From the NCBI GenBank assembly GCA_016793775.1, contig JAEULK010000029.1, positions 1 to 64,000 of the forward strand: a DNA stretch of 64,000 nt, read 5' to 3'. The notes under the pieces are model-generated. The model searched no databases and was not told the DNA's origin. It saw only the letters and a list, made by a program, of their open reading frames with translations. Origin of the DNA: Sphingopyxis sp. Its GTDB lineage: Bacteria > Pseudomonadota > Alphaproteobacteria > Sphingomonadales > Sphingomonadaceae. Positions 1-14,115 of this stretch are shown here, one piece after another. A program made the position numbers and the translations under genes. How positions within the stretch are numbered: the stretch's first letter is position 1; every line of letters begins with the position of its first letter.

Positions 1-98
1 CAGCGCAAGGCCATCTTCAACAAACCAGCATCATATTATCCGAAAAGGGGGTCCCTCTTCGACGCCGATCGGGGGTCCCTTTTGAACGCCGTTTGACA
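1..98 (+). mobile_element. right end of an IS21-type insertion element (partial)
   Basis: Two 24-bp tandem units, each starting GGGGGTCCCT and continuing to ACGCCG, lie at 47-70 and 71-94 and are followed by TTTGACA ending in CA at 98. Repeated transposase-binding units close to a terminal CA are typical of IS21-family (istA/istB) ends. The rest of the element would lie left of the window, so no transposase is visible. The boundary coincides with the point where the neighbouring helicase stops looking like its family. Assignment to IS21 is from family knowledge, not a database match. Confidence 0.55.
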
Positions 99-1784
99 CC
101 CGTCCCAGACCTTCCCGCCGCTGAGAACGATGGCTTCAGCGGCGGCACACCCCATGCCGCTCGAGGTTCGGATCACCGATTGCGGGGGAACGCATGCCAG
201 GAGATCGACCGCGAAGTTGCCAAGCTCGCGAGCTGCCTCGACGAGTTCTGTCACTCGTCCCGGTTCTGCCGCGAGGTCGCCCTCGAAGATGATCACGCGT
301 CCTCCGTTGGCGTCTGAGTTCGGAACGAGGTCCCAATCGTCCAGCCCCAAGCCCCCTGCGACGTCAGCCACGAACGACGCCACATTCGCCTTCATCCTCA
401 GGCACTTCCTGAGCCTGCGCATTGTCGATTGGCCCTTGGCCAGATCTGACGTCCAGTCGGCGACCGAATTCCGCACATACTGGTCCACGCCGTCGGAGAC
501 AACAAGCCGTCTCGGGCCATAAACTGCGTTGAGGATGGCGATCTCATCACTGGGCCAATCCTGGCCTTCGTCGACGAACACCAGATCCCAGTCGAAATCG
601 GTCGCGTCGGCCCGCATAATCGACGCGAGGTCCTCTGGCGTGACCGCGCCACTGCGCAGGTAGTTCAGCAGCGAGGACTTGTGCCCGTCATAGTCATCGA
701 GGAACCCGGAATAGTCGGCAATGATGCCGAGTTTCAGCATGAGCCTCCCAATGAAGCCATGCACGGTTTCGATCGCGACGCCGCCGCCCTCTACGCCGCG
801 AGGGACGCCTAGAAGCGCCATCGTACGCCGCATATCGGCGACCAGAGCCTTGTTGAACGTCAGGACGAGTGAGCGCTGGCCGGACTGATCGAACGCGCGG
901 AACGCCATCTGGAGGAGAATGACCGTCTTCCCGACGCCGCCTCGACCCTTGAGCAGAATCTGGCGCTCGCCTAAATCCTCGAGCCACACGTCCGGCAGGG
1001 CGGTCTTCGCGATCAGGTCCATGCGGCGCCTGTCCAACGGGGTCGGCTCAAGGGTTGTGAACAGCGGCGAGTTGGGTGCAATCAATCGGTCGAACGCCTC
1101 CTCGCTGCCAAAGGAGAGCGTGACTCGTCGGCCTTGCTCCCTGGGGCCCGTCACCTGTCCTAGCACGTTCAAGATGCGCTCGAAGCTCGTGTCGCTCGCG
1201 ATGCAGACGTGGGGACGCGGCGGTAGGTCGCGCTCCTTCAGGCCGGTGAATAGCACTAAGTTCTGCACGTGGACGTAATCCAGCCCAAAACGATCGAGCC
1301 ACTTCTTGAACTCGAACATCTGCGCCCTGTTCTTTTCGGTCACACATTCCCAAGAAGGCTGGCCGTTGCGAACATAGCGCACCGACGCAACGGAGTTCTC
1401 GAACCGGACTCCGGTCGCGGTGTGCGACTTCACCTCAATCACGAGGGCGAAGTTCCGGACCTTCGCTGACTTGGGTGTGAAAGGTTCGCCATCGCGCGGG
1501 TAAAACTTCCATTCTACGTCGAACTGGCGAGCCTCAGCGAAGGTGCCGATGACGACGAGGTCGAGATCCTCGATTTTCTGGCCGTGCATCTTTAACCCAA
1601 CGAAAATCCGCACCATGTCTGTCTTGCTGCGCGCAAGATCGGGCCAGAGATCCAGCAGCCGCCGCTCGAGCCGCTTGGCGGCAGCGTATTCGTCGCCATC
1701 GGTCACGCCAGAGATGATAATCAATGCACGATACTCTCGGTGACCACTGTCAGCACATCTCTCAACGCAGCACCTCTTCCTCAA
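36..1784 (-). CDS. truncated SF1 helicase with N-terminal nuclease-related domain
   Basis: Last gene of the accessory operon. Residues about 55-125 resemble a NERD or PD-(D/E)xK nuclease fold (DLVVIG, then VIEVKS). A UvrD-like ATPase follows: Walker A GRGGVGKT at 280-287 and Walker B VFVDEGQDWP further on. The family continues with a motif V/VI region after a KVWDG-type segment. Here KVWDG is followed at once by residues encoded by the terminal repeats of the IS-like element, and the frame stops at 36. The protein is therefore probably cut short and lacks motifs V-VI. The frame opens with TTG at 1784, overlapping the upstream stop; TTG at 1724, preceded by GAGAG, is an alternative start. Likely role is DNA unwinding or cleavage in defence; activity is doubtful after truncation. 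Confidence 0.7.
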   Translation of the reverse strand: MRKRCCVERCADSGHREYRALIIISGVTDGDEYAAAKRLERRLLDLWPDLARSKTDMVRIFVGLKMHGQKIEDLDLVVIGTFAEARQFDVEWKFYPRDGEPFTPKSAKVRNFALVIEVKSHTATGVRFENSVASVRYVRNGQPSWECVTEKNRAQMFEFKKWLDRFGLDYVHVQNLVLFTGLKERDLPPRPHVCIASDTSFERILNVLGQVTGPREQGRRVTLSFGSEEAFDRLIAPNSPLFTTLEPTPLDRRRMDLIAKTALPDVWLEDLGERQILLKGRGGVGKTVILLQMAFRAFDQSGQRSLVLTFNKALVADMRRTMALLGVPRGVEGGGVAIETVHGFIGRLMLKLGIIADYSGFLDDYDGHKSSLLNYLRSGAVTPEDLASIMRADATDFDWDLVFVDEGQDWPSDEIAILNAVYGPRRLVVSDGVDQYVRNSVADWTSDLAKGQSTMRRLRKCLRMKANVASFVADVAGGLGLDDWDLVPNSDANGGRVIIFEGDLAAEPGRVTELVEAARELGNFAVDLLACVPPQSVIRTSSGMGCAAAEAIVLSGGKVWDGCQTAFKRDPRSASKRDPLFG

Positions 1785-4700
1785 CCGTCCGTGTCGCGGC
1801 GGGGAGGTTGCCCCTCACCAGGAGTTCATTGACCGGAATGACCTCGCCACCGTCCCACTTCTCCCGCAGTTCGGCGATGACGGGATCCGCCGGATGGTCG
1901 GCCGTGAGGGGGCCGGCGATCGCTATCACGATCTTTGCGCCATCGGCGCGCGTCGCCAGAATGGGCACGACGACATTTCCCATGCCAGATACCGTCACCG
2001 TCGCGTCGCCCTCGTAGGTCATACCATTGCCCGTGTTCCGCTTAAGATCGAGTAGTAGAATCCGGGTGGACGCCGCCACACGCTGAGGACTGAACGGCTG
2101 CATGTTGTCAGTTAGGAGGAACTCCACGAGTTCCGCACCGACGTGCCGGTCGAGTTGCCCATGCTCGAACTTGTTCTTGAAGCTACGTAGGCAGCGGTAG
2201 CAGGAGGAATCGCAGTTCTCCTCGCAGGTCTTCATTACCTTGAGCGCGCGCTGGAACAGTTCTAGCCCGCGACCAGCCAGTTGTCGGGCAAAGCCAGCAC
2301 CACCAGGCAGCGTGTCGTAAAGGAAGATTTCGGCCTCGAGGCCTGCCTTGCCTGCGGGCGTCAGCGCCGGCCGATATTCGGCCATCATCTCGCCCGGCTC
2401 GACCTCAAGGATGCCGCAGGCGGCCTTCGCCATCGCTTCGCTTACCGTCCGCAAGGCGACATCCGTGGGATAGTAACCCGGCTTCAGCTTCAGGGGCGCC
2501 TCGACGCGGAGCGAGAAGAGCGCGATGTCGGTGATGAAATCGGTCCCTAGGACAATGTGTCTGGAGGTCCGCGTCCCGGGGCAGGTGGGCTCCTTGTCCG
2601 GATACGGCTTCGGATGCGGAGCGAACATCGACGCCGTGCCTTCAGCGGAAGATTCGATGCGACCGCACAACGTGCAGTAGTTGTATCCCTCATGCTTGGG
2701 GCCGGTGTTCGACACCAGAAGATGCTCCCGGTTCGGCATAACGCGGATGCGGTCGTTCACAAACGTCCACTTATCGTCGTCGGCGGGCGTCGGCATCACT
2801 AGCTTCGCCCGCGTCGCGTAGCTAGTTTCTGGCATATCGTCCGGTGAGGTGACCTCCTCTTGATCCACCCGGTGCGCGAAGCCAGGTGGCCTTAGCCAAT
2901 ATTGCGTCGGGCCGAACGTCTCCTCCGAGCCGCACGCATGACAATCTGTGATTGTATCGCGCTCCAGACCCTCGTCGATTTTCACCGTTTCGGCGAACCC
3001 GCACTCGCTACACTCTCGGTAGAGCCGGCGGTTCTGCCAAGCGTCAAACCGATCCTCCGACATCGGAGAGTAGATGGCACCCGAGGTGTAGCACTTGCCT
3101 GAAATCCAGACCTGCTTGCCGGGGGCGTATTGCGACAGTGCGACCGGCAGTCCCTGCGACGGCGCGAAGCGCATTACCGGTTTGTACTGGGTTGAGCGCT
3201 CCAGATCGAAGACGCTGAAAGTCGCGACGTCCGTCGGGAACGCATAGCGCGGCAGAACACCCTTGTAGAGCAGGCGGTCGAGCAGCGTGCCGGTTACCGC
3301 CTTCTGGGGAGGAGCCTCCTCACCAACCTCCTCCTGCACCTCGTTGTCACCTTCTTTGGCGTCGTCATCGTCCTCTATCTCGACTTTCGCGCCGCCGACC
3401 GAATCACTGGCAATCGCGGCCTCGACTGCGGTGATGCAATCCTCGGCCATCCCGTCGAGCAGCGCTTGCCGGACCTCGCCCGACACCTCATGGGGAATCC
3501 ATCCAGACACCCGGGATTTGAGGTCGGCCTCATTGTCCAGAAGCCACTGCTTGAAGTCGGCCGCGTTAAGCGTGGCTCCAGACGTCTTGAAGCCTTCAAC
3601 CGAACCGAGAACCGAGAACAGGTCGGGGTTGGACGTGGGATCGAACTTCGGGAGGCGGACCTGATGATACGACTGCAACAAGTATGCCCGGATGTGCCGC
3701 TTTACGATATCGGGATTGTCTAGCGTCAGCCTCGGATCGATGACCTTCCCCGAAATCATCTCCTTCGGCTCCCTAAAGTAATGTTCGTCGTGGCTGTCGG
3801 CGCTGCCGAAAGCGACGACCGTCGCTACCGCGTTGCCGCGGCGCCCTGCGCGGCCCGCGCGCTGCTGGTAGTTGGCCCGGCCGGGCGGCATGTTGCGGAG
3901 CGCGACGCCGGAAAGGGCGCCGATGTCGATCCCCACTTCCATCGTGGTGGTGCTCGACAGTACATCGATGGCCGTCGACTGCCCAGCCGTGGCTCCCCAG
4001 TCGAGGTCCACGTCTTGGAACAGCAGTTCGTTCACCTCGGCCATCGAGAACACGTCGTCGCTCTGGGGAGCGTTCAACTGGGCGGTGTGCTCGGCCGCGA
4101 TCAGCGCCATAGGGATCTCGGGAGGATCCGCCAGCGCCCCTAGGACGGGCGAGCGGTAGTACCCCTTGCGCGCGGAGAAGACGCTGTCCTCGACGGGGTC
4201 GAGGGCCGCGACCTGATCGCTGCCGCAGTCCAGGCAGTGTGGGATGGTCCGCACGGGACGGTGGACCGACTTGCAGTCCGTGCAACGCCGCCACTCGCCA
4301 TTTAATTCGAGGGATAAGTTCTGGCCCGCGAGCCGGCGAAAGCCACCGTCCATATCGGTCGTGAATATGTTGAGCAGGATCGGCGTCCAGGCCTTGAACG
4401 ACTTACGGGCTGCGGGGTCCTTGAGGACCGTGTCCATCGCCTTGAACGTGCCCTTGCGGGAATTCACGCTCGTACCTTTGCCCGCGGGGCGCTTATACCA
4501 TGCCATCGGCATCGTGTTCAGCCAGAAGCCAACCGAGCGCCAGCAGCGCAGCCACGCCCTCGCTAGCGCGACCTTGTCCTCGTCGGTTTCCGCAATCCCC
4601 GGGATCGGCGGGAGCGCGTGCAGCTCTTTGGTCTTGTTGGCACGCTCGCGGATCGACGCGAGCGCGAGCGCCTCCAGGCCCAGATACTTGTCCTGGACGG

Positions 4701-7305
4701 TCTTCACGATGTCGTCCAGCAGCGCTGCAGGCGGCGTCTCCCCCCGTACCTCCATCCACAGCATCGTCAGCCGGTTTTCGTCTGCCGTCGCGTTCTCCGC
4801 AATGCCTTTCGCAACCATCTCCTCCGCGGTAGAGAAGTTCTCCCCGGACTTCCGCTCGGGCCGCAGGCGAACGCCAAGCGCCTGCGAAGCCAGCATCACC
4901 GCGAGATAGAGTTCCTCGAGGCTAAGCATCTGCTGGACCATCGTCGGCTTCGCAAGCAGGTCGTATCCCCAGATGATCAAAGAGCGCAGCGCGTCGCGCA
5001 CGGAATACATCTGCAGATTGGGCGCCAGCCGCGCAGCGACCTGACGCGAATCCGAGAAGACGAGGACCTTACGCCCGCGGAGCGGCGCGAACCGGCTCGG
5101 GGCTTGCTTGCCGGGGGGCTGCACGGCCAACTGGCGGGAGACAATCGCCTGGAACGGCTGATCACCCTTGGTCTGGTGGTTCTGGACCGTTGTGCGGCCC
5201 CGTGCCGTCTGCCCGCACACGCCGCAGGGCACGAACTGGCCGCGCCGTTCCGAATTCGTGTCGACCTCACCATCCTCTCCGACCGCTGGCGCCTGACGCT
5301 CCTTCCTAATGTAGACGGTGCGCGTCCGCTGGCCGGCCGAAAGTCGGCCAGTGTCGAGATCGTATTCAGCGATCTCGGCGACATCAGGCCGTCTCGGCCG
5401 TTCCAGCAGCAGGTCGAGGTCTAGAAGCGGCAGGGTTTCGCCGCCCGTCATGCGCAGCCTGCGGCCAGGTTCGGACCAGAGGGCGTCCGGCGAGTCGACG
5501 TCGTCCGAATACGCCCTTGCGTACCCCGAACCACAACTCCGGCAGGTGAAGAACTCCAATACCCGCGACCCGCATCCGCAGACGTCGTGCGGCTGGCTGT
5601 ACATCTTGCCGCTGATGCCGGTGCGCTCCTCCTCGCCGAGTTCCGAGCAGTCGGGGTCCATGCACACCCACAGACCCGGGAGCCCGCGGTAGAAATTGTG
5701 CACGCGGCATGGCAGCGGGCCCGACGCATCGGGCTGCTCGCGCGCTACGCTGCCGATCGCGAGAAGGGCCGTGACGGCCGCGTCAGCGATCTCCAGCGAA
5801 TCAGGGAAAAGCTCCGCGCCGAGTTCGGCGACCGGTTGGGCGGCACCCATGGTGGTGTTGACGAGCCGCCCAAGCGGCGCGAAGTCCTTCAACGCCTCGA
5901 ACAGATCGCGCTCGATGCCTGCCGACGGCGTCACGCCGCGATGGCCGAGGAACGGCGCGATCGCTGCCGCGCGGTCTGCTTCGTCCGGCGAATAGAACAA
6001 CGGGAGGTCGAGGGCCGCCAAGACCTCAGCGTCCGCCTTGCTGCCGACCGCCGCGTTGGCCCGAAAGTCTAGGTCGCCCGTGACGGCCACGAACGTCTCG
6101 GGCGGCACGCCGGAAAGTTGGGCACCAAACTCGGTCGCATATTCCTTACTGTCGAAGCTCGCGGTCGCGCAGATAACCTGGAAGCGCTCGGCAGAGATGT
6201 CGAGGCGGTCACGGAGTCTTCGGAGCAGAAGCCCGACCTCGGCGCCCGCCGCACCGCGGTAAAGATGGGCCTCGTCGAGGACGACGGTGAACTTCTCGAC
6301 GGGGTTGGCCGCCAGCCAAGTGCGCGTGCTGTCGAAGATCGTCCGCTCGATCGGCCGCATCATCATATATTCGAGCATCGAGTAGTTGGTCACCATCAGG
6401 TCCGGGCACGAAGCCTGGACCTCGTGGCGGGTGATCAGTTCAGAGTCCTCCGGAAGCGTCGTCGCGCGAAGGAATTCGTCCTGCTTGGGGTCGTACCAAC
6501 GCGACCCCTTCGCCCCGAACCACCTGTCGAGATCGGGTTTCGCCGGCCACTTCCCACGTTCCTGCAACTGCGAGCGAAGCCGCGCCGCGCGTTCCTGATC
6601 CTCGGAGACGGGACCAGCCGCTTGGCGCTCGATCTCGACGTAGAACTCCTCAAAGGAGGCGAGCTTCCGTCCATCCTTCTTACCTGATCGAACCCCGGCA
6701 TACGGCGTTCGGCTGGTGTAGCGTGCGAAACGCGGTGGGCGCCCCGCCCAGGTGTTGAAGTGATCGACGAGGTCCGTATCGCCGAAGATGGCACGCAGAC
6801 GGCCCAACTGGTCGTTGACCAGGGCGTTCATCGGATAGAGCAGCAGCGCCCGCATAGCCGGCTGCGCGAAGGACGTCGGTCGCTCCGCCGCCTCGCGGGC
6901 AAACTTGCCCAGGATGGGGAGCAAGAAGGATTCGGTTTTACCCGAACCCGTGCCGGTCATGATGACAAGGTTGCGTCCATCGATCAGCGCGTGCCGGACC
7001 GCATCGCCCTGATGTCGGTAGGGAGGGTCGAACAGCAGGCGGGGACGGTCTTCGCGGACACTCGACAGCTTCTCAAAGATCGTGCGGGCGGCCGGCGGCA
7101 AACCCTCGACCTCGCTGAATCTCGCGCCGACCTGGTAGCGCGGTGTCGTCTCGAGGAATGGCTCCTGGTGCGTGACGCCGGTCCGGTCCAGCAGCGTCCT
7201 GCGCTGGTCGATTAGCGTGGACGCACCGATGTGGTAGGTCGCCTCGATGTATTCCTTCAGCGAGGAATGGAGACGGTCAATCGTCTCCTGGATTGTGGTC
7301 GACAT
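1762..7305 (-). CDS. large DEAD/DEAH helicase with DUF1998-like C-terminus (DruE/MrfA-like)
   Basis: An 1847-aa SF2 helicase. Walker A TGTGSGKT is near residue 120, motif Ia LLYPMNALVNDQ near 160, DEAH with VVLDEAHLYRGAAG near 345, motif III CATAS follows, and motif VI QQRAGRAGRRG lies in the second half. Several CxxC zinc-knuckle pairs separate and follow the helicase lobes (for example CGVCG, CTDC, CSEC, CTLC). The C-terminus has PGGAGFARQL and a C-x3-C-x3-C-x2-C cluster (CEENCDSSCYRC), the signature of DUF1998/MZB-type helicases such as DruE, DrmB-related proteins and MrfA. I place the start at ATG 7305 because AGGGGG lies just upstream; a GTG at 7353 would overlap the previous gene. It starts 13 nt after the 358-aa gene. 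Likely the DNA-translocating core of a defence system; which one is inference. Confidence 0.85.
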   Translation of the reverse strand: MSTTIQETIDRLHSSLKEYIEATYHIGASTLIDQRRTLLDRTGVTHQEPFLETTPRYQVGARFSEVEGLPPAARTIFEKLSSVREDRPRLLFDPPYRHQGDAVRHALIDGRNLVIMTGTGSGKTESFLLPILGKFAREAAERPTSFAQPAMRALLLYPMNALVNDQLGRLRAIFGDTDLVDHFNTWAGRPPRFARYTSRTPYAGVRSGKKDGRKLASFEEFYVEIERQAAGPVSEDQERAARLRSQLQERGKWPAKPDLDRWFGAKGSRWYDPKQDEFLRATTLPEDSELITRHEVQASCPDLMVTNYSMLEYMMMRPIERTIFDSTRTWLAANPVEKFTVVLDEAHLYRGAAGAEVGLLLRRLRDRLDISAERFQVICATASFDSKEYATEFGAQLSGVPPETFVAVTGDLDFRANAAVGSKADAEVLAALDLPLFYSPDEADRAAAIAPFLGHRGVTPSAGIERDLFEALKDFAPLGRLVNTTMGAAQPVAELGAELFPDSLEIADAAVTALLAIGSVAREQPDASGPLPCRVHNFYRGLPGLWVCMDPDCSELGEEERTGISGKMYSQPHDVCGCGSRVLEFFTCRSCGSGYARAYSDDVDSPDALWSEPGRRLRMTGGETLPLLDLDLLLERPRRPDVAEIAEYDLDTGRLSAGQRTRTVYIRKERQAPAVGEDGEVDTNSERRGQFVPCGVCGQTARGRTTVQNHQTKGDQPFQAIVSRQLAVQPPGKQAPSRFAPLRGRKVLVFSDSRQVAARLAPNLQMYSVRDALRSLIIWGYDLLAKPTMVQQMLSLEELYLAVMLASQALGVRLRPERKSGENFSTAEEMVAKGIAENATADENRLTMLWMEVRGETPPAALLDDIVKTVQDKYLGLEALALASIRERANKTKELHALPPIPGIAETDEDKVALARAWLRCWRSVGFWLNTMPMAWYKRPAGKGTSVNSRKGTFKAMDTVLKDPAARKSFKAWTPILLNIFTTDMDGGFRRLAGQNLSLELNGEWRRCTDCKSVHRPVRTIPHCLDCGSDQVAALDPVEDSVFSARKGYYRSPVLGALADPPEIPMALIAAEHTAQLNAPQSDDVFSMAEVNELLFQDVDLDWGATAGQSTAIDVLSSTTTMEVGIDIGALSGVALRNMPPGRANYQQRAGRAGRRGNAVATVVAFGSADSHDEHYFREPKEMISGKVIDPRLTLDNPDIVKRHIRAYLLQSYHQVRLPKFDPTSNPDLFSVLGSVEGFKTSGATLNAADFKQWLLDNEADLKSRVSGWIPHEVSGEVRQALLDGMAEDCITAVEAAIASDSVGGAKVEIEDDDDAKEGDNEVQEEVGEEAPPQKAVTGTLLDRLLYKGVLPRYAFPTDVATFSVFDLERSTQYKPVMRFAPSQGLPVALSQYAPGKQVWISGKCYTSGAIYSPMSEDRFDAWQNRRLYRECSECGFAETVKIDEGLERDTITDCHACGSEETFGPTQYWLRPPGFAHRVDQEEVTSPDDMPETSYATRAKLVMPTPADDDKWTFVNDRIRVMPNREHLLVSNTGPKHEGYNYCTLCGRIESSAEGTASMFAPHPKPYPDKEPTCPGTRTSRHIVLGTDFITDIALFSLRVEAPLKLKPGYYPTDVALRTVSEAMAKAACGILEVEPGEMMAEYRPALTPAGKAGLEAEIFLYDTLPGGAGFARQLAGRGLELFQRALKVMKTCEENCDSSCYRCLRSFKNKFEHGQLDRHVGAELVEFLLTDNMQPFSPQRVAASTRILLLDLKRNTGNGMTYEGDATVTVSGMGNVVVPILATRADGAKIVIAIAGPLTADHPADPVIAELREKWDGGEVIPVNELLVRGNLPAATRTVEEEVLR

Positions 7306-7318
7306 CTTCAGGACCCCC

Positions 7319-8395
7319 TCATTCGGCTGTCCCCGCGAGGAACAGCATCTCACTTAGAAACTTCTCTTCGGTCGCGACCTCTGTCTCTGGAACGAGAAAC
7401 GAAAGGAGGCATCCTGCGGGATCGATCTCGCTCCCGATTACAGCAAGCCGCTTCCGTGCCCACATCGGAATCGGGAAGAAGAAGTCCAGAATCGAGTTCC
7501 CTCCGGCTTCGCGCAACCGGTATTCCTGCGGGCGGCCGGCGACCGTATCGATCGCCATCTGGATCCGCCACGCGGCGTCGCAGCCGCGCCACCTGTCGCC
7601 ATGTAGCGGCAGGTCCAACAGTTTCCGCGGCTGACCATCGACGAGTTGCGCATAGCCCCACAGGTCGGATCCGAACGTCTGCGGCCTACGGACCACGAAG
7701 TTGCCCGTCAGCGTCCCCGGCGATGTCCATCTTCCCTTGTAGCTTCGAGCCCTTCGCGATCCGTCGAGGACGATCATGTCGGGTATTTCTCCAGATGCTG
7801 GCAACCCGTTGAGCTTTGTATCGTGAAGCGTGATTAGGTCCTTGGCGCTGACAGGTTTTGGGTGTTTCAGCCAGGCGCTCTCGGACAGGTGCCGCAAACC
7901 AAGGTCGTGCAGGGCTGTGGCCAAGTCCTCCGTCGGAAGCGGGGTGATGGACCTGATGCCGCGGCGGTTCTCGACCCGCGACCTCATCTCCGTAGGCAGC
8001 GGAGTCTGCTCGTCCGCGGAGAGCCCTAGCACGAAGGCCGTACCGCCGGGTCGGACGACATAGCCGGGTGGCGCCGCGACCAGCCAAGTGCCGCGCACCT
8101 GCTCGCCTTCGAGCGCGACGTCGCCCAATTCCAGAAGATCGCCGATCGCCACCAGCGATTCGATCGAAGCCTCGACGAGGTCTACGAAGGTCGCGACATC
8201 ATCGACCAGCCCGTGGTGGCTGTCGACCATCCGGCGCACGAGTGTGCGCGGTGAGCACGGGCAAAGGAAGCCGGCGAGCCGCCGGACAGCGGCCGACAAG
8301 TAGCAAGCGCTCAAAATTCCCTCATCGCCTCTTTCAAGGCCCAATGATGAATAGGCTGTGCCAATGACGGCGTGCTCGTCGATGGCTTCGATCAT
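7319..8395 (-). CDS. unknown protein of helicase-linked defence-like operon (358 aa)
   Basis: Second gene of the operon. Its ATG overlaps the stop of the 946-aa gene as ATGA, so the two are probably translationally coupled, and it is followed after 13 nt by the DUF1998 helicase. I recognise no domain. There is no signal peptide or membrane segment, and the fold looks mixed alpha/beta. The C-terminal third has a hydrophobic aromatic stretch (SILDFFFPIPMWARKR) and ends in an acidic helix. It may be a DNA-recognition or bridging subunit for the helicase; this is inference from position only. Confidence 0.75.
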   Translation of the reverse strand: MIEAIDEHAVIGTAYSSLGLERGDEGILSACYLSAAVRRLAGFLCPCSPRTLVRRMVDSHHGLVDDVATFVDLVEASIESLVAIGDLLELGDVALEGEQVRGTWLVAAPPGYVVRPGGTAFVLGLSADEQTPLPTEMRSRVENRRGIRSITPLPTEDLATALHDLGLRHLSESAWLKHPKPVSAKDLITLHDTKLNGLPASGEIPDMIVLDGSRRARSYKGRWTSPGTLTGNFVVRRPQTFGSDLWGYAQLVDGQPRKLLDLPLHGDRWRGCDAAWRIQMAIDTVAGRPQEYRLREAGGNSILDFFFPIPMWARKRLAVIGSEIDPAGCLLSFLVPETEVATEEKFLSEMLFLAGTAE

Positions 8396-11232
8396 ACCGA
8401 ACCTCCAACATTGGACGCAGAAGCTGGGTAGGACCGGCCAAGCAATTGCACGATGCGGGCACCGGCCGTCAGGCCTGGACAGTTCCAGAGGTGGTCGATC
8501 ATGGTCGCCAGTTCAGTGTCGTCAGGTCTCAAACCCCGGTCGAGCACGTCGGATAGGTCGAGAGCGGGTTGTGACGCGACACCGGGCGCGACGGCATAGC
8601 GATGCGCGAGCGAGGCAAATTCGCGCTGCCTGACGTGGTCGGGCAACCGGGCGAACTTCGCTGCGTCCCTAACTAGGACGATCGCGAACGCCCGCTTGTG
8701 TTCGAAGCACTCAATCAACGCCTCCACCGCCTTTTCCCGAGAACGACCTTCGCGCAGTGCTCTTTCCGCGGCGGCCCAATTCGCGCCACACATGACGTAG
8801 TGGAGGCACTCCTTCAGGCGATCGAGGACGCGCGCGCGCCGCTCGATCGCGAACGCCCCGGCGACCCGCGCATCGGACCACGCTACTACCGCCTTCACGA
8901 TGATGAGTGCATCTTCACGCGTCTGAAGCACAGTCCTCAAGTCCGGCTCGACGAGCAGCCCTCCGAGGCCGCCATCGACTTTCCTCACACCTACGACCAG
9001 CGGCACATGCTGATCACCATAGCTCGCGACGAAAAGGCCGCCTGGTGTCTCCGGCTCGATGCCCGCCTCGACGTCGGCAACTGCGAAGGGTTTCTCGTCT
9101 AGCGGTCTTGCGAAAGATCGGAATGAGACTTGCGGTGGTGCCTCACCGTCATGGTCGTCAACCAGCCTGATTTGCGTGGACTTGTTCGTGGAGCGCCATA
9201 CCCAGCGGATGGGGGAGGCGTCCCTGTGAAGCGGGATCCGAATTGTTCCGAGTTCGTCCCCATCGACCAGAATTCGGCCAGAGCTGGCCGCAAGATAGCC
9301 CCAAGGATCCTTCTCCCGTCGCTCGAAGGTCGCGAACGCCGAGCGCCACGTCTCCGGGCCAAAAGGCAGCGCCAAAACGCCAATCTGTTCGAGGGCGATT
9401 CGTGCTCCGGAGCCATCGAGAAGCTCAACCGAGACGGTCACATGGCGACCCGCCGGTCCTAGGACATCTATCTGGGAAAGGCCCTCCCAGAACTCGTCGA
9501 GTGTAGATTCCGGCGGTTCCGAACTGGCAATGAGTCCACAATGACCGATCGTTCCGCTGACCCAAGCGTTGGGCGGCCTGATGGACAGCGAGATCCATCC
9601 TTCGACGGGCTGCGATGAAGTGTCCGGTGCCGCGTGCCCGATCACTCTGACGGAGAGCACGTGGTTGCCTGCCGGCAATGGCTGAAGGCGGATGAACGTT
9701 GGGACGCCGGCAGCCTTCGCGGCGATTGTCAACGGTGGGTCCGTGCCGAGCCTTACTTGATACTCCGCGATAGGGTGATCATGCTCGATTCCGAAGCACG
9801 GGCTTTCGTTCTCAAGCCACTCCGTCGCCCCTTCGCCATCCCAATTTCGTGCGGCGAGTCCCGCTGGCCAGACTCGAATTGTCTGCGCGATGGAGAACCC
9901 GGCCGCTTTAAGTTCGGCGACCTGTTCGGTTGACAGGGTTCGAGGCAGTTCCAGTCGTAGCCCCTTCGCCCCTTCGCATACGATCGAGGTCGGAGTGGCG
10001 GCAGTGAGGTTCGGAACTTCTGACGTCGATATGAGCACGTAGGTGTGGCCGGGTCGGACCAGCCTTCCGACCATCTCGATCGCCTGTCCGTCGGCGCCGA
10101 CCCGGAAAAGCCATGTCGGGCCTGGAGAAATATGCCCCTCGCTTGCGAGCAGATGTTCCATCTTTGGGTTCGGCATCAGAAATTTCAGAACCGGCGCTCC
10201 CGTCGGAGGCCAAGAATCCAGCACCCTTCTTTGCGCACCTTGAAGGAGCCAGCCAGGGGGACGGGTTCCCTTCGTACCAGCGACGGTGCACCTTGTCCGT
10301 CTCAGGAACTCGTCAAGCTCAGGGGAGAGGTCGGCGACGGGCTGGAGGCTGGGCAGTTCGATGGTCGGCGTCCACTCGTCGGGGGCAGTCCGACGCAGTG
10401 AGAGCAACGGGCGGATCGAAAGTCTCCGCTCGTCGTGTTTGCTCGTTGAAGAGGCGTCCGCAGCCGCGCCCCCTCCGAGATTTCGTGCCACGCCGCGCAT
10501 TCTGGCGACCTCGACGGCCTTCCTGGTATCGTGCAGCCACTGGCGCGCGTTTCTCGTTTCTTCGAGATCGCCAACGATTCTCTCGAGCGTCTGCGGCAGA
10601 ATTGCGCTATCTTCACCGGCGGTACGGTGGTCGAGGAGGCCGAGAACAATTCGTCCGACCAACTCCTCTTGCTCTAAGAAGTTGTCGAAGCGCGAACTGC
10701 CTCCGCGAGCCATGCGGGCAACGTAACGGCCAACGTCTGAGGCCGATTGGTCGAGCCTTGAGACCAACTGGTATCGAAGGCCATAAAGCGCGCGTGCCAA
10801 TTGCCATTGCAGGTCTTTGGGGAGCAGCGCGTGGGTGATTGGCCATGCGATGATTGAGAAAAAGTTTGCCCATCTTCCAACGGGCAAGACGCCGCCATAG
10901 CTCTTGCGGAACTTTCCGAACCAGTTGCGGAGCGCCGGACGCCAACTCCGATCCCAAAAGGGCATGCGGCATTCAAACGTATGCCAATACTCGTCGCCGT
11001 CGTAGTCATAACCCTGTTCTGTTGCGTAGATAACCCAAACCAGCCAGTGCGTGGCCAAGCGATAGCGGGTTTGCAGGGCCGCCTTGAGCAGCTTCGAGAC
11101 GTCGGACAACTCATCGGTGTTTAGTCCATGCTCGAAAGCGAACACGGGCAAACCGCGCTCCGCGCGAATTGCCGCCAGCGACGCGAAGTGCCCTTCGAGA
11201 CGCTTTTGGAAAGCGTCAAGATCACCGCTCAT
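8392..11232 (-). CDS. large unknown protein of helicase-linked defence-like operon (946 aa)
   Basis: First gene of the four-gene operon. The N-terminal 250 residues are helical and rich in Trp and Tyr (GDEYWHTFE, then WANFFSIIAWPITHALLP); the remainder looks beta-rich with repeated short strands. No Walker, nuclease or methylase motif is visible. ATG at 11232 is preferred over TTG at 11238; no strong ribosome-binding site is seen. Its size and its place beside a DUF1998 helicase resemble DruH beside DruE in type III Druantia, but I could not align them. The ORF is intact, with codon use like the helicase, so the operon probably moved as a unit. Confidence 0.75.
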   Translation of the reverse strand: MSGDLDAFQKRLEGHFASLAAIRAERGLPVFAFEHGLNTDELSDVSKLLKAALQTRYRLATHWLVWVIYATEQGYDYDGDEYWHTFECRMPFWDRSWRPALRNWFGKFRKSYGGVLPVGRWANFFSIIAWPITHALLPKDLQWQLARALYGLRYQLVSRLDQSASDVGRYVARMARGGSSRFDNFLEQEELVGRIVLGLLDHRTAGEDSAILPQTLERIVGDLEETRNARQWLHDTRKAVEVARMRGVARNLGGGAAADASSTSKHDERRLSIRPLLSLRRTAPDEWTPTIELPSLQPVADLSPELDEFLRRTRCTVAGTKGTRPPGWLLQGAQRRVLDSWPPTGAPVLKFLMPNPKMEHLLASEGHISPGPTWLFRVGADGQAIEMVGRLVRPGHTYVLISTSEVPNLTAATPTSIVCEGAKGLRLELPRTLSTEQVAELKAAGFSIAQTIRVWPAGLAARNWDGEGATEWLENESPCFGIEHDHPIAEYQVRLGTDPPLTIAAKAAGVPTFIRLQPLPAGNHVLSVRVIGHAAPDTSSQPVEGWISLSIRPPNAWVSGTIGHCGLIASSEPPESTLDEFWEGLSQIDVLGPAGRHVTVSVELLDGSGARIALEQIGVLALPFGPETWRSAFATFERREKDPWGYLAASSGRILVDGDELGTIRIPLHRDASPIRWVWRSTNKSTQIRLVDDHDGEAPPQVSFRSFARPLDEKPFAVADVEAGIEPETPGGLFVASYGDQHVPLVVGVRKVDGGLGGLLVEPDLRTVLQTREDALIIVKAVVAWSDARVAGAFAIERRARVLDRLKECLHYVMCGANWAAAERALREGRSREKAVEALIECFEHKRAFAIVLVRDAAKFARLPDHVRQREFASLAHRYAVAPGVASQPALDLSDVLDRGLRPDDTELATMIDHLWNCPGLTAGARIVQLLGRSYPASASNVGGSV

Positions 11233-11865
11233 CGACAAACGAGCATAGATTTTTCGTAACGACTGCCCCGTCCCTGCGCTTCAAACCCCGTTCCCCCTGC
11301 AGCGCCTTCAGACAATCGCCGTCGCCCCCGACTGATTGTATCGACTTACATGAACATTTAGTTTGCACCAATGGAACGGACGAAACAATCCAATACGGAT
11401 GGAGCAAGTGACTTCATTCTGTTTTAATGTCTCACTTGAGCGGCAAGTCCTCGATGTTGGTGCCTGACGCAGATTGCGTGAACAACCTCCCTTCTCGACT
11501 GTGCGCTTATGTGTCGAAAGCTGATTCTTCGCGAATGTTGACGGTTGGATTCGACAGGCACGCTTCTTGCCTTGACCAAGGTCACACAAATGTCCGCTTG
11601 CTGCGATTCACAGCCGAAAGCGGTCGGGCCGCAATCGGCCATGAGTGGATTGTGACCCCGCGCTGTATCGATTCATAGGATGCGGGCGGCGTGGACAATT
11701 CTTGGACCCGCCAGAGACGCCCGCCAAGAATCGAGACGATGCAAAAATTTGTGCCAGTCTCTGTCCCCGCAAGTCTGACTAGCATTGCCAATAGCGCGCG
11801 GAAGTAGGCTCAAAGACGGTCCAGCATCAAATTTTAGCGAGCTAAAACAGATATTTAACACTGTG
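11233..11865. other. non-coding AT-richer gap between island operon and tRNA-Arg
   Basis: This stretch of about 630 bases is visibly less GC-rich than both sides. It holds only short overlapping ORFs with no recognisable product. It must contain the promoter of the minus-strand operon, but I see no convincing -35/-10 pair. No integrase gene and no second copy of the tRNA 3' end is visible, although an island boundary is expected here. Confidence 0.6.
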
Positions 11866-11942
11866 TGGCGCGCCCGGCAGGATTCGAACCTGCGACCACC
11901 CGCTTAGAAGGCGGGTGCTCTATCCAGCTGAGCTACGGGCGC
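11866..11942 (-). tRNA. tRNA-Arg (anticodon UCU)
   Basis: The reverse strand folds into a complete 77-nt cloverleaf: acceptor GCGCCCG paired with CGGGCGC, D-arm GCTC/GAGC, anticodon stem CCCGC/GCGGG with loop CTTCTAA (anticodon UCU, reading AGA), T-arm GCAGG/CCTGC with TTCGAAT, discriminator G and an encoded CCA. Its 3' end points at the accessory island, the usual orientation for a tRNA used as an integration site. Confidence 0.97.
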
Positions 11943-12013
11943 GTGCACAAGGCTGTGGAGCGCGCGAATAGCGCGGTTTGCGCGGGCAGCAAAGCAAGAT
12001 AAGCAGCGAGTCG

Positions 12014-12751
12014 ATGACCGACCCCACAGCACCCGCCCGCACCAGTGCCGCCGACGTGCGGCATTTTCGCTATTATGACTTCGTCATGGCGGCGTTCGTC
12101 GCGATCCTGTTGCTCAGCAACATCATCGGGGCATCGAAACGCTCGGTGGTCGAACTGCCCTCGATCGGCGACTGGCCCTTCGGCGCGGGGGTGATGTTCT
12201 TCCCCCTGAGCTATGTCATCGGCGACATGCTGACCGAGGTCTATGGCTATGCGCGGGCGCGGCGGGTGATCTGGACGGGCTTTGCCGCGCTCGCCTTCAT
12301 GGCGTTCATGGCGTGGGTCGTCGTCTCCTTGCCGCCCGCCCCCGGGTGGCCGCATCAGGCGGCCTATGAGGCGGTGTTCGCGAACAGCTGGCGGATCGTG
12401 ATCGCCTCGATGCTCGCCTTCTGGGCCGGGGAGTTCGCCAACAGTTTCGTCGTCGCCAAGATGAAGGTCGCCGACGACGGCAAGCGCATGGGGCTGCGCT
12501 TCGTCGCCAGCACCTTCGTCGGCCAGGGACTCGACAGCCTGATCTTCTACCCCATCGCCTTTTACGGCCTGGAAGGCTGGCCGACCGGCGAACTGATGAA
12601 GACCGTGCTGTCGCAATGGGCGATCAAGACGGGGTGGGAGATCATCCTGCTGCCCGTGACGGTCGCGATCGTCGTCTGGCTGAAGCGCCGCGAAGGCGTC
12701 GACGTCTATGACGAGGGTACCGATTTCAGCCCCTTCGCGGCGAAGCTCTGA
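12014..12751 (+). CDS. yhhQ: queuosine precursor transporter (VUT/YhhQ family)
   Basis: A 245-aa inner-membrane protein with about six hydrophobic segments and the family sequence FPLSYVIGDMLTEVYGYARA. YhhQ proteins import preQ0/preQ1 for queuosine tRNA modification. I use ATG at 12014; an upstream TTG (11978) would add 12 polar residues without a ribosome-binding site. The next gene shares one base with its stop. Function is assigned by family. Confidence 0.88.
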   Translation: MTDPTAPARTSAADVRHFRYYDFVMAAFVAILLLSNIIGASKRSVVELPSIGDWPFGAGVMFFPLSYVIGDMLTEVYGYARARRVIWTGFAALAFMAFMAWVVVSLPPAPGWPHQAAYEAVFANSWRIVIASMLAFWAGEFANSFVVAKMKVADDGKRMGLRFVASTFVGQGLDSLIFYPIAFYGLEGWPTGELMKTVLSQWAIKTGWEIILLPVTVAIVVWLKRREGVDVYDEGTDFSPFAAKL

Positions 12752-13125
12752 TGGGCGAGGCGATCTCGCTCCTCTACCAGCAGCTCAAGATCGTGCTGAT
12801 CGACGGCAGCGGACTCGGCAAGGATGCGCTGCACATTTACGCCGGCATGGCGATCTATCTGACCGTGCGGCTGGGGCTGCGGCGGTCGGTGTGGATGGCG
12901 TGGCTTGCGGTGGTGATCGCGGCGCTGGCGGGCGAATGGCTCGACGTGCAGGGCGAATATATCCGCGGGCTGCTCGCCCCCGAACCCGGCCATTGGCACG
13001 ATATCTGGAACACCGCCTTCTGGCCGAGCGTGCTGGCGGTGGTCGAACGCTGGTGGCCGCGGCGCGAGGCTGGGCCGACTGCCGACTTAAGCGAGAACGC
13101 CAAGCGCGGCCTCGAACAGGCGTAG
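12751..13125 (+). CDS. small membrane protein of unknown function (124 aa)
   Basis: Two predicted membrane segments (around [13 protein letters not shown] and [16 protein letters not shown]) and a charged C-terminus. Its ATG shares the A of the upstream TGA, so it is coupled to the transporter gene. Its last 39 bases overlap the 3' end of purQ on the other strand. The layout recalls small VanZ-like proteins, but I cannot assign a family. Confidence 0.75.
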
Positions 13126-13752
13126 CCCGTCGGTGCCGCCATGCGCGCGGTCGATCGCGCGTTCGGGATGCGGCATCATGCCAAGCACATTGCCCGCATC
13201 GTTCAATACGCCCGCGATATCGCGCGCCGATCCGTTGACGCTGTCGGCGTAGCGGAAGGCGACGCGCCCCTCGCCTTCGAGCCGGTCGAGCGTTTCGGCG
13301 TCGGCGAAATAATTGCCGTCGTGATGCGCGACCGGGATGGCGATCGCTTCGTCGACCTTATAGCTGGCGGTGAACAAGGACTGGCTGTTCGCGACGGTCA
13401 GCGGCACCGTGCGGCAGACGAAATTGAGCCCGGCGTTGCGCATCAGCGCACCGGGCAGCAGCCCCGCCTCGGTCAGCACCTGGAAGCCGTTGCACACGCC
13501 GAGCACCGGCACGCCGCGGCCTGCGGCCTCGCTGACCGCGGCGAGGATCGGCGAGCGCGCCGCCATCGCGCCCGAGCGCAGATAATCGCCATAGGAAAAG
13601 CCGCCGGGCAGCGCGACGAAGTCGGTGCCGTCGGGCAAGGCGGTCTCACGGTGCCACACCATCGCGGACGCCTTGCCCGTGACCTGTTCGAGCGCGACCG
13701 CCATGTCGCGGTCGCAGTTGGAGCCCGGAAAGACGATGACGGCGGTCTTCAT
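13087..13752 (-). CDS. purQ: phosphoribosylformylglycinamidine synthase subunit PurQ
   Basis: A 221-aa class I glutamine amidotransferase that supplies ammonia for FGAM synthesis in the fourth step of purine biosynthesis, working with PurS and PurL. The nucleophile is Cys87 in GVCNGFQ, and His195/Glu197 in MMPHPERA complete the triad. It starts 14 nt after purS; purL is not in this window. The length is normal for the small PurQ of the PurSQL complex. Confidence 0.96.
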
Positions 13753-13766
13753 GGCTCGCTATCCTT

Positions 13767-13997
13767 TCAGGCGCGCTGGATGCGGTAGTTTTCGATCACC
13801 GTGTTCGCGAGCAGCCTGGCGCACATCGCGTCGAGGTCGGCGTCGCTGACGCTGTCGGCGACTTCGAGTTCGATGAAGCGGCCGGCGCGGACATCGTCGA
13901 CCCCCGCGAAACCCAAGCCTTCGAGCGCATGGTGGATCGCCTTGCCCTGCGGATCGAGCACCCCGGGTTTCAGCGTCACATAGATGTTCACTTTCAT
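13767..13997 (-). CDS. purS: phosphoribosylformylglycinamidine synthase subunit PurS
   Basis: A 76-aa protein beginning MKVNIYVTLKPGVLDPQG, the hallmark of PurS, with the GLGF segment that follows in the family. It bridges PurQ and PurL in the three-subunit FGAM synthase. First gene of the purS-purQ pair; its upstream region faces the iron-regulated bfd gene. Confidence 0.96.
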   Translation of the reverse strand: MKVNIYVTLKPGVLDPQGKAIHHALEGLGFAGVDDVRAGRFIELEVADSVSDADLDAMCARLLANTVIENYRIQRA

Positions 13998-14115
13998 GGG
14001 GGGACTTTCATGGAAGCAGACCGTTGCTGCGGAGGGCGGGAAGATGGGCGCGCCTATGCCCGCGAATCACTTGATCGGCAAGGGTGGCTGCCCAAGAAAA
14101 TGCGGCTTTTCGGAA

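Follow-up and report, generated by a model that had tools for sequence, protein, structure and literature searches.

A probable Druantia type I variant, apparently broken, beside a tRNA-Arg gene of Sphingopyxis sp.

Introduction

At the start of contig JAEULK010000029.1 (C14) of Sphingopyxis sp. (assembly GCA_016793775.1), a row of genes around a large DUF1998/YprA-type helicase raises two questions: to which known defence system, if any, does it belong, and is this copy intact? The window analysed here is a stretch of 64,000 nucleotides whose base 1 is base 1 of the contig. DruE is described as the sole part common to all Druantia types (PMC13192584). Type I is defined by five genes, DruA-DruB-DruC-DruD-DruE (PMC7251935 and the E. 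coli record), and its DruE is reported to carry an inactivated Vsr domain (PMC12458937); the type III DruE is described as a helicase-nuclease that loads on 3′-tailed DNA, with its partner DruH as the likely sensor (PMC13192584).

In our reading, to which we give a probability of about 85% for the identification and the broken state jointly, the locus is what remains of an island-borne variant of Druantia type I, called X-type here, which has a protein X in place of DruB and DruC and an added nuclease-helicase (NERDhel). The full X-type would comprise X-DruD-DruE-NERDhel together with DruA, present either in a short form directly upstream or in a long form nearby, usually convergent behind NERDhel.

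Results and Discussion

Gene Content and Island Border

Three tightly spaced genes on the minus strand, with the lengths and positions claimed by an initial annotation, form the body of the locus. The X gene (946 aa, 8392-11232 from an ATG, in an ORF reaching 11238 from a TTG) overlaps by 4 bp with druD (358 aa, 7319-8395), which is followed by druE (1847 aa, 1762-7305 from an ATG, in an ORF of 1863 codons reaching 7353 from a GTG). Next on the same strand lies a truncated gene (99-1724) for NERDhel, a NERD-like PD-(D/E)xK nuclease with an SF1 helicase, recognised by its motifs and by identity to the proteins of two other loci. Its ORF spans 36-1784 (582 codons) and the start at 1724 was judged from relatives; given this start, the overlap with the 1847-aa gene that had been described is not required, while the membership of the SF1 helicase in the operon was borne out. 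Bases 1-98, at the contig edge, are the terminal part of a multi-copy insertion sequence (IS), recognised from 98-base repeats in the genome, which interrupts the NERDhel gene.

At the other end, 633 bp from the start of X, a tRNA-Arg(TCT) gene (11866-11942, minus strand) was found by ARAGORN and scored 74 bits with Rfam, which gave nothing else in bases 1-14000 of the window. The locus is thus bracketed, as proposed, by a tRNA gene and an IS end. With a query that extended 1.9 kb further into the window past the tRNA, similarity to nine genomes of the same genus runs leftward through the tRNA-Arg gene and ends at 11864-11866 in seven of them and at 11894 in the other two. Among the 1500-bp left flanks of five of these relatives (L067, L068, L070, L072 and L074), compared in the same orientation, no two are alike. 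The 3′ end of the tRNA-Arg gene thus forms a variable border and, as we infer, resembles an integration site. Since the synteny with relatives stops at this point, the operon stands on an island, on the variable side of the border.

Assignment of DruE and DruD

The DruE ORF matches the DruE1 model of PADLOC (PDLC00013) with 2062 bits over residues 17-1861, against 556 bits for the best DruE3 (type III) model; the P. putida DruE scores 2332 bits with PDLC00013. It contains the Pfam domains DEAD, Helicase_C and MZB (MrfA Zn-binding) together with helicase motifs, as a YprA-family SF2 helicase with an MrfA Zn-binding/DUF1998-type C-terminus. Five PDB chains are related to it by sequence, the best being 9tu7 (9.1e-77) and YprA 6znp being among them. 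The 358-aa protein matches the PADLOC DruD1 models PDLC00012 (E=3.7e-162) and PDLC00010 (E=7.2e-112); it has no Pfam match, and its only matches among PDB sequences were to crystallins, at chance level (E=0.26 and 0.7). Two partners had been called unrecognised, and one of them can now be named as DruD1, while the 946-aa X is without any model.

The layout had been likened to type III Druantia (DruH-DruE) with two extra genes. This reading would explain why a YprA-family DruE, which both share, stands beside a large protein of no known family with no DruA in the window. However, the window DruE is of type 1, with DruE3 at most at 556 bits, no DruH is among the matches listed, and DruD1 is present. 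Membership in type III was therefore rejected, and we regard it as extremely improbable.

Two further systems were considered and rejected. The DISARM gene set comprises DrmA, DrmB, the SNF2 helicase DrmD and a methylase; in the window, DrmA matches come from the shared helicase core only (53.5 bits at best), and neither DrmB nor a methylase is among the matches listed. In the case of ARMADA (YprA helicase, BrxHII-like helicase and PglX-like methylase), no PglX-like protein was found among the four, and the BrxHI/HII matches correspond to the helicase core of DruE. TALON, described as a YprA-like (ARMADA-like) helicase with a NERD nuclease, TPR-CSD and TBP and found largely in Chloroflexota (PMC12458937), also has a YprA-like helicase adjoining a NERD-type nuclease, but differs in its TPR-CSD and TBP genes and its ARMADA-like helicase, where the X-type has DruE1, DruD1 and X.

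Comparison with Classical Druantia Type I

Of the type I components, DruE1 and DruD were found in the window, and DruA (DUF4338/PF14236), DruB and DruC were not. The classical references were P. putida plasmid pKF715A and E. coli MB1, both with the order druA-druB-druC-druD-druE; the proteins of the former match DruA1, DruB1, DruC1, DruD1 and DruE1 of PADLOC in that order. The E. coli reference was reached through the P. putida druE stretch that is the counterpart of bases 1-3936 of the Nitrosococcus druE and that matches 69 of 5426 E. coli genomes, whereas those 3936 bases of Nitrosococcus, an X-type host, gave no match in E. coli DNA. The X-type shares with type I the same DruE1 and DruD1 in the same order, with DruA1 directly upstream in 15 relatives. 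It differs from the two references in having X where they have DruB and DruC and in an added NERD nuclease-helicase; moreover, DruE is only about 33% identical between the two groups, DruD is barely alike, and the clade of the window has a second form of DruA elsewhere.

A single DruE1 model spans X-type and classical DruE, whereas the DruD1 models differ between both groups: the best model for the P. putida DruD is PDLC00009, and PDLC00010 matches it at 2.7e-5. Compared by hhalign, X-type and classical DruD align collinearly over 211 columns with E=0.014 and a probability of 3%, which suggests that they are weakly related. In a DruE tree of 31 rows, built by a quick method with SH-aLRT support only, the 25 DruE of X-bearing loci and one from an X-less locus (L044) form one group with a support of 100. 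This group splits into a set of 14 with a short upstream DruA and a set of 11 to which the window belongs, and the E. coli and P. putida DruE fall far outside it; the outer branching order is unsure, since several long outgroup branches were flagged. Because the models PDLC00001, PDLC00002, PDLC00010, PDLC00012 and PDLC00013 already match X-type proteins strongly, X-type loci were probably among those used to model type I.

Protein X and the Place of DruB and DruC

Neither PADLOC nor Pfam nor NCBIfam gave a match for X. In Pfam, this holds for all 22 members of its alignment, and the 22-sequence profile retrieved nothing from the PDB up to E=1. The X of Nitrosococcus gave no PADLOC match either, DruB and DruC included. 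Given that the P. putida proteins match DruA1 to DruE1 in order and X matches none of these models, X occupies the place of DruB and DruC.

X might be a highly diverged DruB-DruC fusion, and the locus an ordinary Druantia type I with fused genes and an extra helicase. The position of X between DruA and DruD in 15 loci, as for DruB-DruC, fits this view, as does the gene count, with a single gene of about 950 codons in place of the two classical ones of 558 and 625 codons. Nevertheless, profile-profile comparison by hhalign gave E=0.11 over 28 columns with DruB and E=0.78 over 18 columns with DruC for X, and 0.71 and 0.4 for its homologue X′; this comparison has little reach, as the profiles of DruB and DruC were each built from two sequences and DruD against DruD is scarcely detected by this method, so that a homology could lie too deep to detect. 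In addition, no ORF in the X loci has the P. putida DruB or DruC as its best match (E≤1e-5). X matches instead the X′ of DISARM-like loci with E=4.6e-40 over profile columns 10-873, that is, most of its length. We consider the fusion unlikely, and prefer X as a replacement of DruB and DruC.

With respect to the three libraries searched, X is new, NERDhel is weakly matched, and DruA1, DruD1 and DruE1 are already modelled. Given that X has no model in the copies of PADLOC, Pfam and NCBIfam used, tools based on them show only part of such loci. We found no description of X together with Druantia in the open-licence PMC literature, as far as titles, opening parts of abstracts and selected passages go.

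Census of X Loci

X relatives were collected from plasmids, from species-representative genomes (22 loci) and from IMG/VR (2 loci), and three (L041-L043) were found via DruD. Among the plasmids, four of Sinorhizobium medicae matched X, one of which was mapped (L004). As the scans use short peptide patterns, the census is a sample and no full count. Thirty X loci were mapped: the window, L003, L004, L009-L032 and L041-L043. X is full-length (>900 aa) in 26 of them, the window included, and degraded in L004, L013, L025 and L030. In each of the 26, X is followed on its own strand by DruD and DruE, although L043 stops inside druE and L024 has druE in two frames. NERDhel follows DruE in 24 of the 25 loci that could be judged (L043 was excluded from the count); it is absent from L003, and the 24 include an 84-aa stub in L027, a gene in two frames in L014, one cut by the contig end in L018 and the truncated gene of the window. 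An identical gene set and order in 25 other loci, with the last gene absent in one and past the contig end in another, is more than chance would give.

A sample of 385 genomes of the class, including that of the window, was searched with cut-offs of E≤0.001 for DruD1, E≤1e-5 for X and E≤1e-20 for NERDhel. DruD1 was found in four genomes, X in four and NERDhel in two, and the X-type system is therefore rare, at about 1% of the sample. Both genomes with NERDhel, that of the window (G000) and G236 (L042), carry X-DruD-DruE. G276 (L043) has DruA, X, DruD and a DruE cut at the contig end. In G447 (L065), DruA is accompanied by the first 325 codons of X, where the available stretch stops. From IMG/VR, X and an X-type DruD were retrieved on the same pair of contigs.

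These results uphold the proposal of a defence-type operon around a DUF1998/YprA-type helicase with a large unrecognised partner and a nuclease-like SF1 helicase. The initial annotation had staked the novelty of the operon on its two orphan proteins lacking named hits and on the genes keeping together elsewhere; one orphan was named as DruD1 and the other matched nothing, and the genes do co-occur in other loci.

Three further loci were observed during the census. In G213 (L044, 2984-10008) there is a DruD-DruE pair, the DruD ORF having 493 aa with a long N-terminal extension, and X, NERDhel and DruA were not found in that genome. S. medicae pMl4 (L004, 8004-18740) carries a copy of X-DruD-DruE-NERDhel with several breaks; an IS3 transposase sits within druE, and a further transposase-like ORF was noted by eye between X and druD. 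A metagenome-assembled genome of Rubrivivax (L025, 5373-10215) holds another decayed copy, with rearranged pieces of X, a NERDhel fragment and a long DruA; druD-druE are not in the contig.

NERDhel as a Nuclease-Helicase of the System

The window NERDhel is 86% identical to the L010 protein, of which it covers residues 1-547 of 663, and 61% identical to that of L004. Near the N-terminus, the residues D-x-D, E and E-x-K are invariant in all 17 members compared, and D..E-x-K aligns with the sister proteins described below, one of which scores as Pfam NERD (5.9e-11). The members themselves did not match Pfam NERD, nor did their N-terminal domain match any other Pfam family, and hhalign joins them to the sister NERD proteins through the helicase part alone (E=1.5e-11), so that the NERD assignment is founded on motif and position. 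No relative of solved structure was found among PDB sequences, and PADLOC, Pfam and NCBIfam gave weak helicase-type matches only. The window copy keeps D-x-D..E-x-K and helicase motifs I and II; motifs V and VI are absent, and about 115 C-terminal residues are missing.

Another possibility is that NERDhel is an independent defence gene that rides beside Druantia without being a component. Five contigs in IMG/VR carry a NERDhel relative, two of them with X and DruD, and for the other three (27-39% identity) none of the query genes was found in the fetched stretch. Together with the absence of NERDhel from L003 (Nitrosococcus) and the 84-aa stub in L027, which imply that it may be dispensable, this speaks for independence. 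In contrast, NERDhel stands directly behind DruE in nearly all judged loci, its family was found in only two of the 385 genomes, both with X-DruD-DruE, and NERD-helicases are also present in the sister DruE-like and the DISARM-like loci. An independent NERDhel thus seems rather doubtful, and we treat it as part of the X-type. The three viral contigs with diverged homologues and no query genes nearby are L086, L087 and L088 (39, 33 and 27% identity, respectively).

DruA and Its Exchange between Systems

DruA was found in the fetched flank of 23 of the 26 loci with full-length X, which corresponds to 23 of the 25 relatives of the window; it was not seen in the fetched stretch of L023 and L026 or in the window. 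A short form (about 410 aa) stands directly upstream in 15 loci, and a long form, of 675-683 aa in three complete examples, occurs in eight. The long DruA is convergent behind NERDhel in five loci (in L010 the two genes overlap by 4 bp), upstream on the same strand in two and, in one (L014), on the opposite strand at a distance of about 5.5 kb upstream. Two examples of DruA tested match PDLC00002 and PDLC00001 in PADLOC, and the short form has no relative of solved structure among PDB sequences. With regard to the usual partners of such helicases, said to be absent, DruA is indeed lacking in the window, and the matches listed for the four proteins include no methylase or phospholipase D family. 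The lack of DruA, however, is a peculiarity of this truncated copy.

The identities of DruA between systems contradict those of DruE. Between the classical systems of P. putida and E. coli, DruA is 72%, DruE 66% and DruD 45% identical. Between P. putida (L045) and Nitrosococcus (L003), DruA is 75% identical and DruE 33%, and the DruD match is not significant (BLAST E=1.6). L010 and L016, both X-type, have DruE 63% identical and DruA 35% in the aligned part, while the long DruA of L010 is 75% identical to that of a sister system in Paracoccus versutus (L046), whose DruE is 35% identical. The simplest reading seems to be that DruA moves between systems as a unit.

Broken State of the Window Copy

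The first 98 bases of the window recur at 100% identity on five further contigs of the genome, and each of these matches ends at base 98; a sixth match, on C44, covers bases 1-65 at 91%. The IS sequence cuts the NERDhel gene ahead of motifs V-VI. The missing C-terminus of NERDhel was not found anywhere in the assembly, which is estimated to be 96% complete, and DruA was not found in the window or elsewhere in the assembly. The DruA query was repeated with positive controls, and six of eight genomes matched, G000 and G213 being the two that did not. The reading frames of X, DruD and DruE are open.

An assembly merely broken at a repeated IS, the copy itself being intact, would account for the IS matches on C53, C5 (40 bases from the contig end) and C44, which, like that of the window, are found at contig ends or close to them, and the estimated completeness leaves some sequence unaccounted for. 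Yet neither the NERDhel C-terminus nor DruA was found in the assembly, and whatever the sequence beyond, the end of the IS falls within the NERDhel gene. An intact copy is therefore very unlikely. With a NERDhel that lacks motifs V-VI and no DruA found, the window copy is not an intact operon and is probably non-functional as a complete system.

Possible Mechanism of the X-Type

An anti-phage function of the X-type is putative, by homology to Druantia, and we found no phage test of this variant in the literature. Its most likely organisation, by analogy with known systems, would be a motor with a separate NERD nuclease-helicase and a sensor or scaffold made of X and DruD. DruE would be the SF2 motor that engages DNA. 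Given that type I DruE is reported with only an inactivated nuclease domain, NERDhel is the most likely source of DNA cutting, and we give about an even chance that it acts as the effector. X with DruD would most likely serve, judging from its position in the place of DruB and DruC, as a scaffold or sensor that licenses NERDhel, and DruA would be an exchangeable accessory.

The X-type may be regarded as a natural experiment on the interchangeable parts of Druantia, where DruD and DruE are kept, the middle partners are swapped and a nuclease-helicase is added. It suggests a possible source of the nuclease missing from type I, and its DruA forms are common to otherwise distant systems.

Sister and DISARM-Like Loci with X′

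X′ occurs with an SNF2 helicase in two kinds of loci. In the DISARM-like kind, found in the same genus (L050, 4738-19772), in Azospirillum (L005) and in Rhizobium (L006), X′ and SNF2 are divergent from UvrD (GajB-like), DrmA, DrmB and a NERD-helicase. DrmA and DrmB were confirmed by PADLOC in L050 and L005, and no methylase lies between the own genes of the three loci; in L006 a set of cytosine methylase, Vsr and MvaI/BcnI endonuclease follows about 450 bp behind. The X-type is linked to these DISARM-like loci by the homology of X and X′, but its operon is without DrmA, DrmB, SNF2 or methylase.

In the sister kind, on P. versutus pTAV4 (L046, 6869-23545) and in Leisingera (L008, 11188-23877), a DruE1-like helicase (2052 aa and 1430 bits in L046), a NERD-helicase and a small protein face SNF2 and X′. 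The small protein (316-333 aa) is DruD-like in L008 (PDLC00010, 1.3e-5); its L046 counterpart is 28% identical and has no PADLOC match. X-type DruD and this DruD-like pair give a weak collinear match (E=0.0042, probability 8%). A long DruA precedes the sister system in L046 and was not seen in L008.

A wider reading, which we put forward tentatively and hold to be possible, is that the X-type represents a separate type of Druantia and that the X family is a common licensing scaffold to which varied YprA helicases and NERD nucleases attach, while DruA would be a specificity part that is passed freely between systems. If it were true, X, rather than a methylase, would link DISARM and Druantia. 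Over 82 columns (E=7.4e-9), the N-termini of the UvrD/GajB-like proteins (L005, 9961-10950; L006, 11080-11859; L050, 10674-11453) were also observed to be similar to the N-terminal region of the DruD-like proteins.
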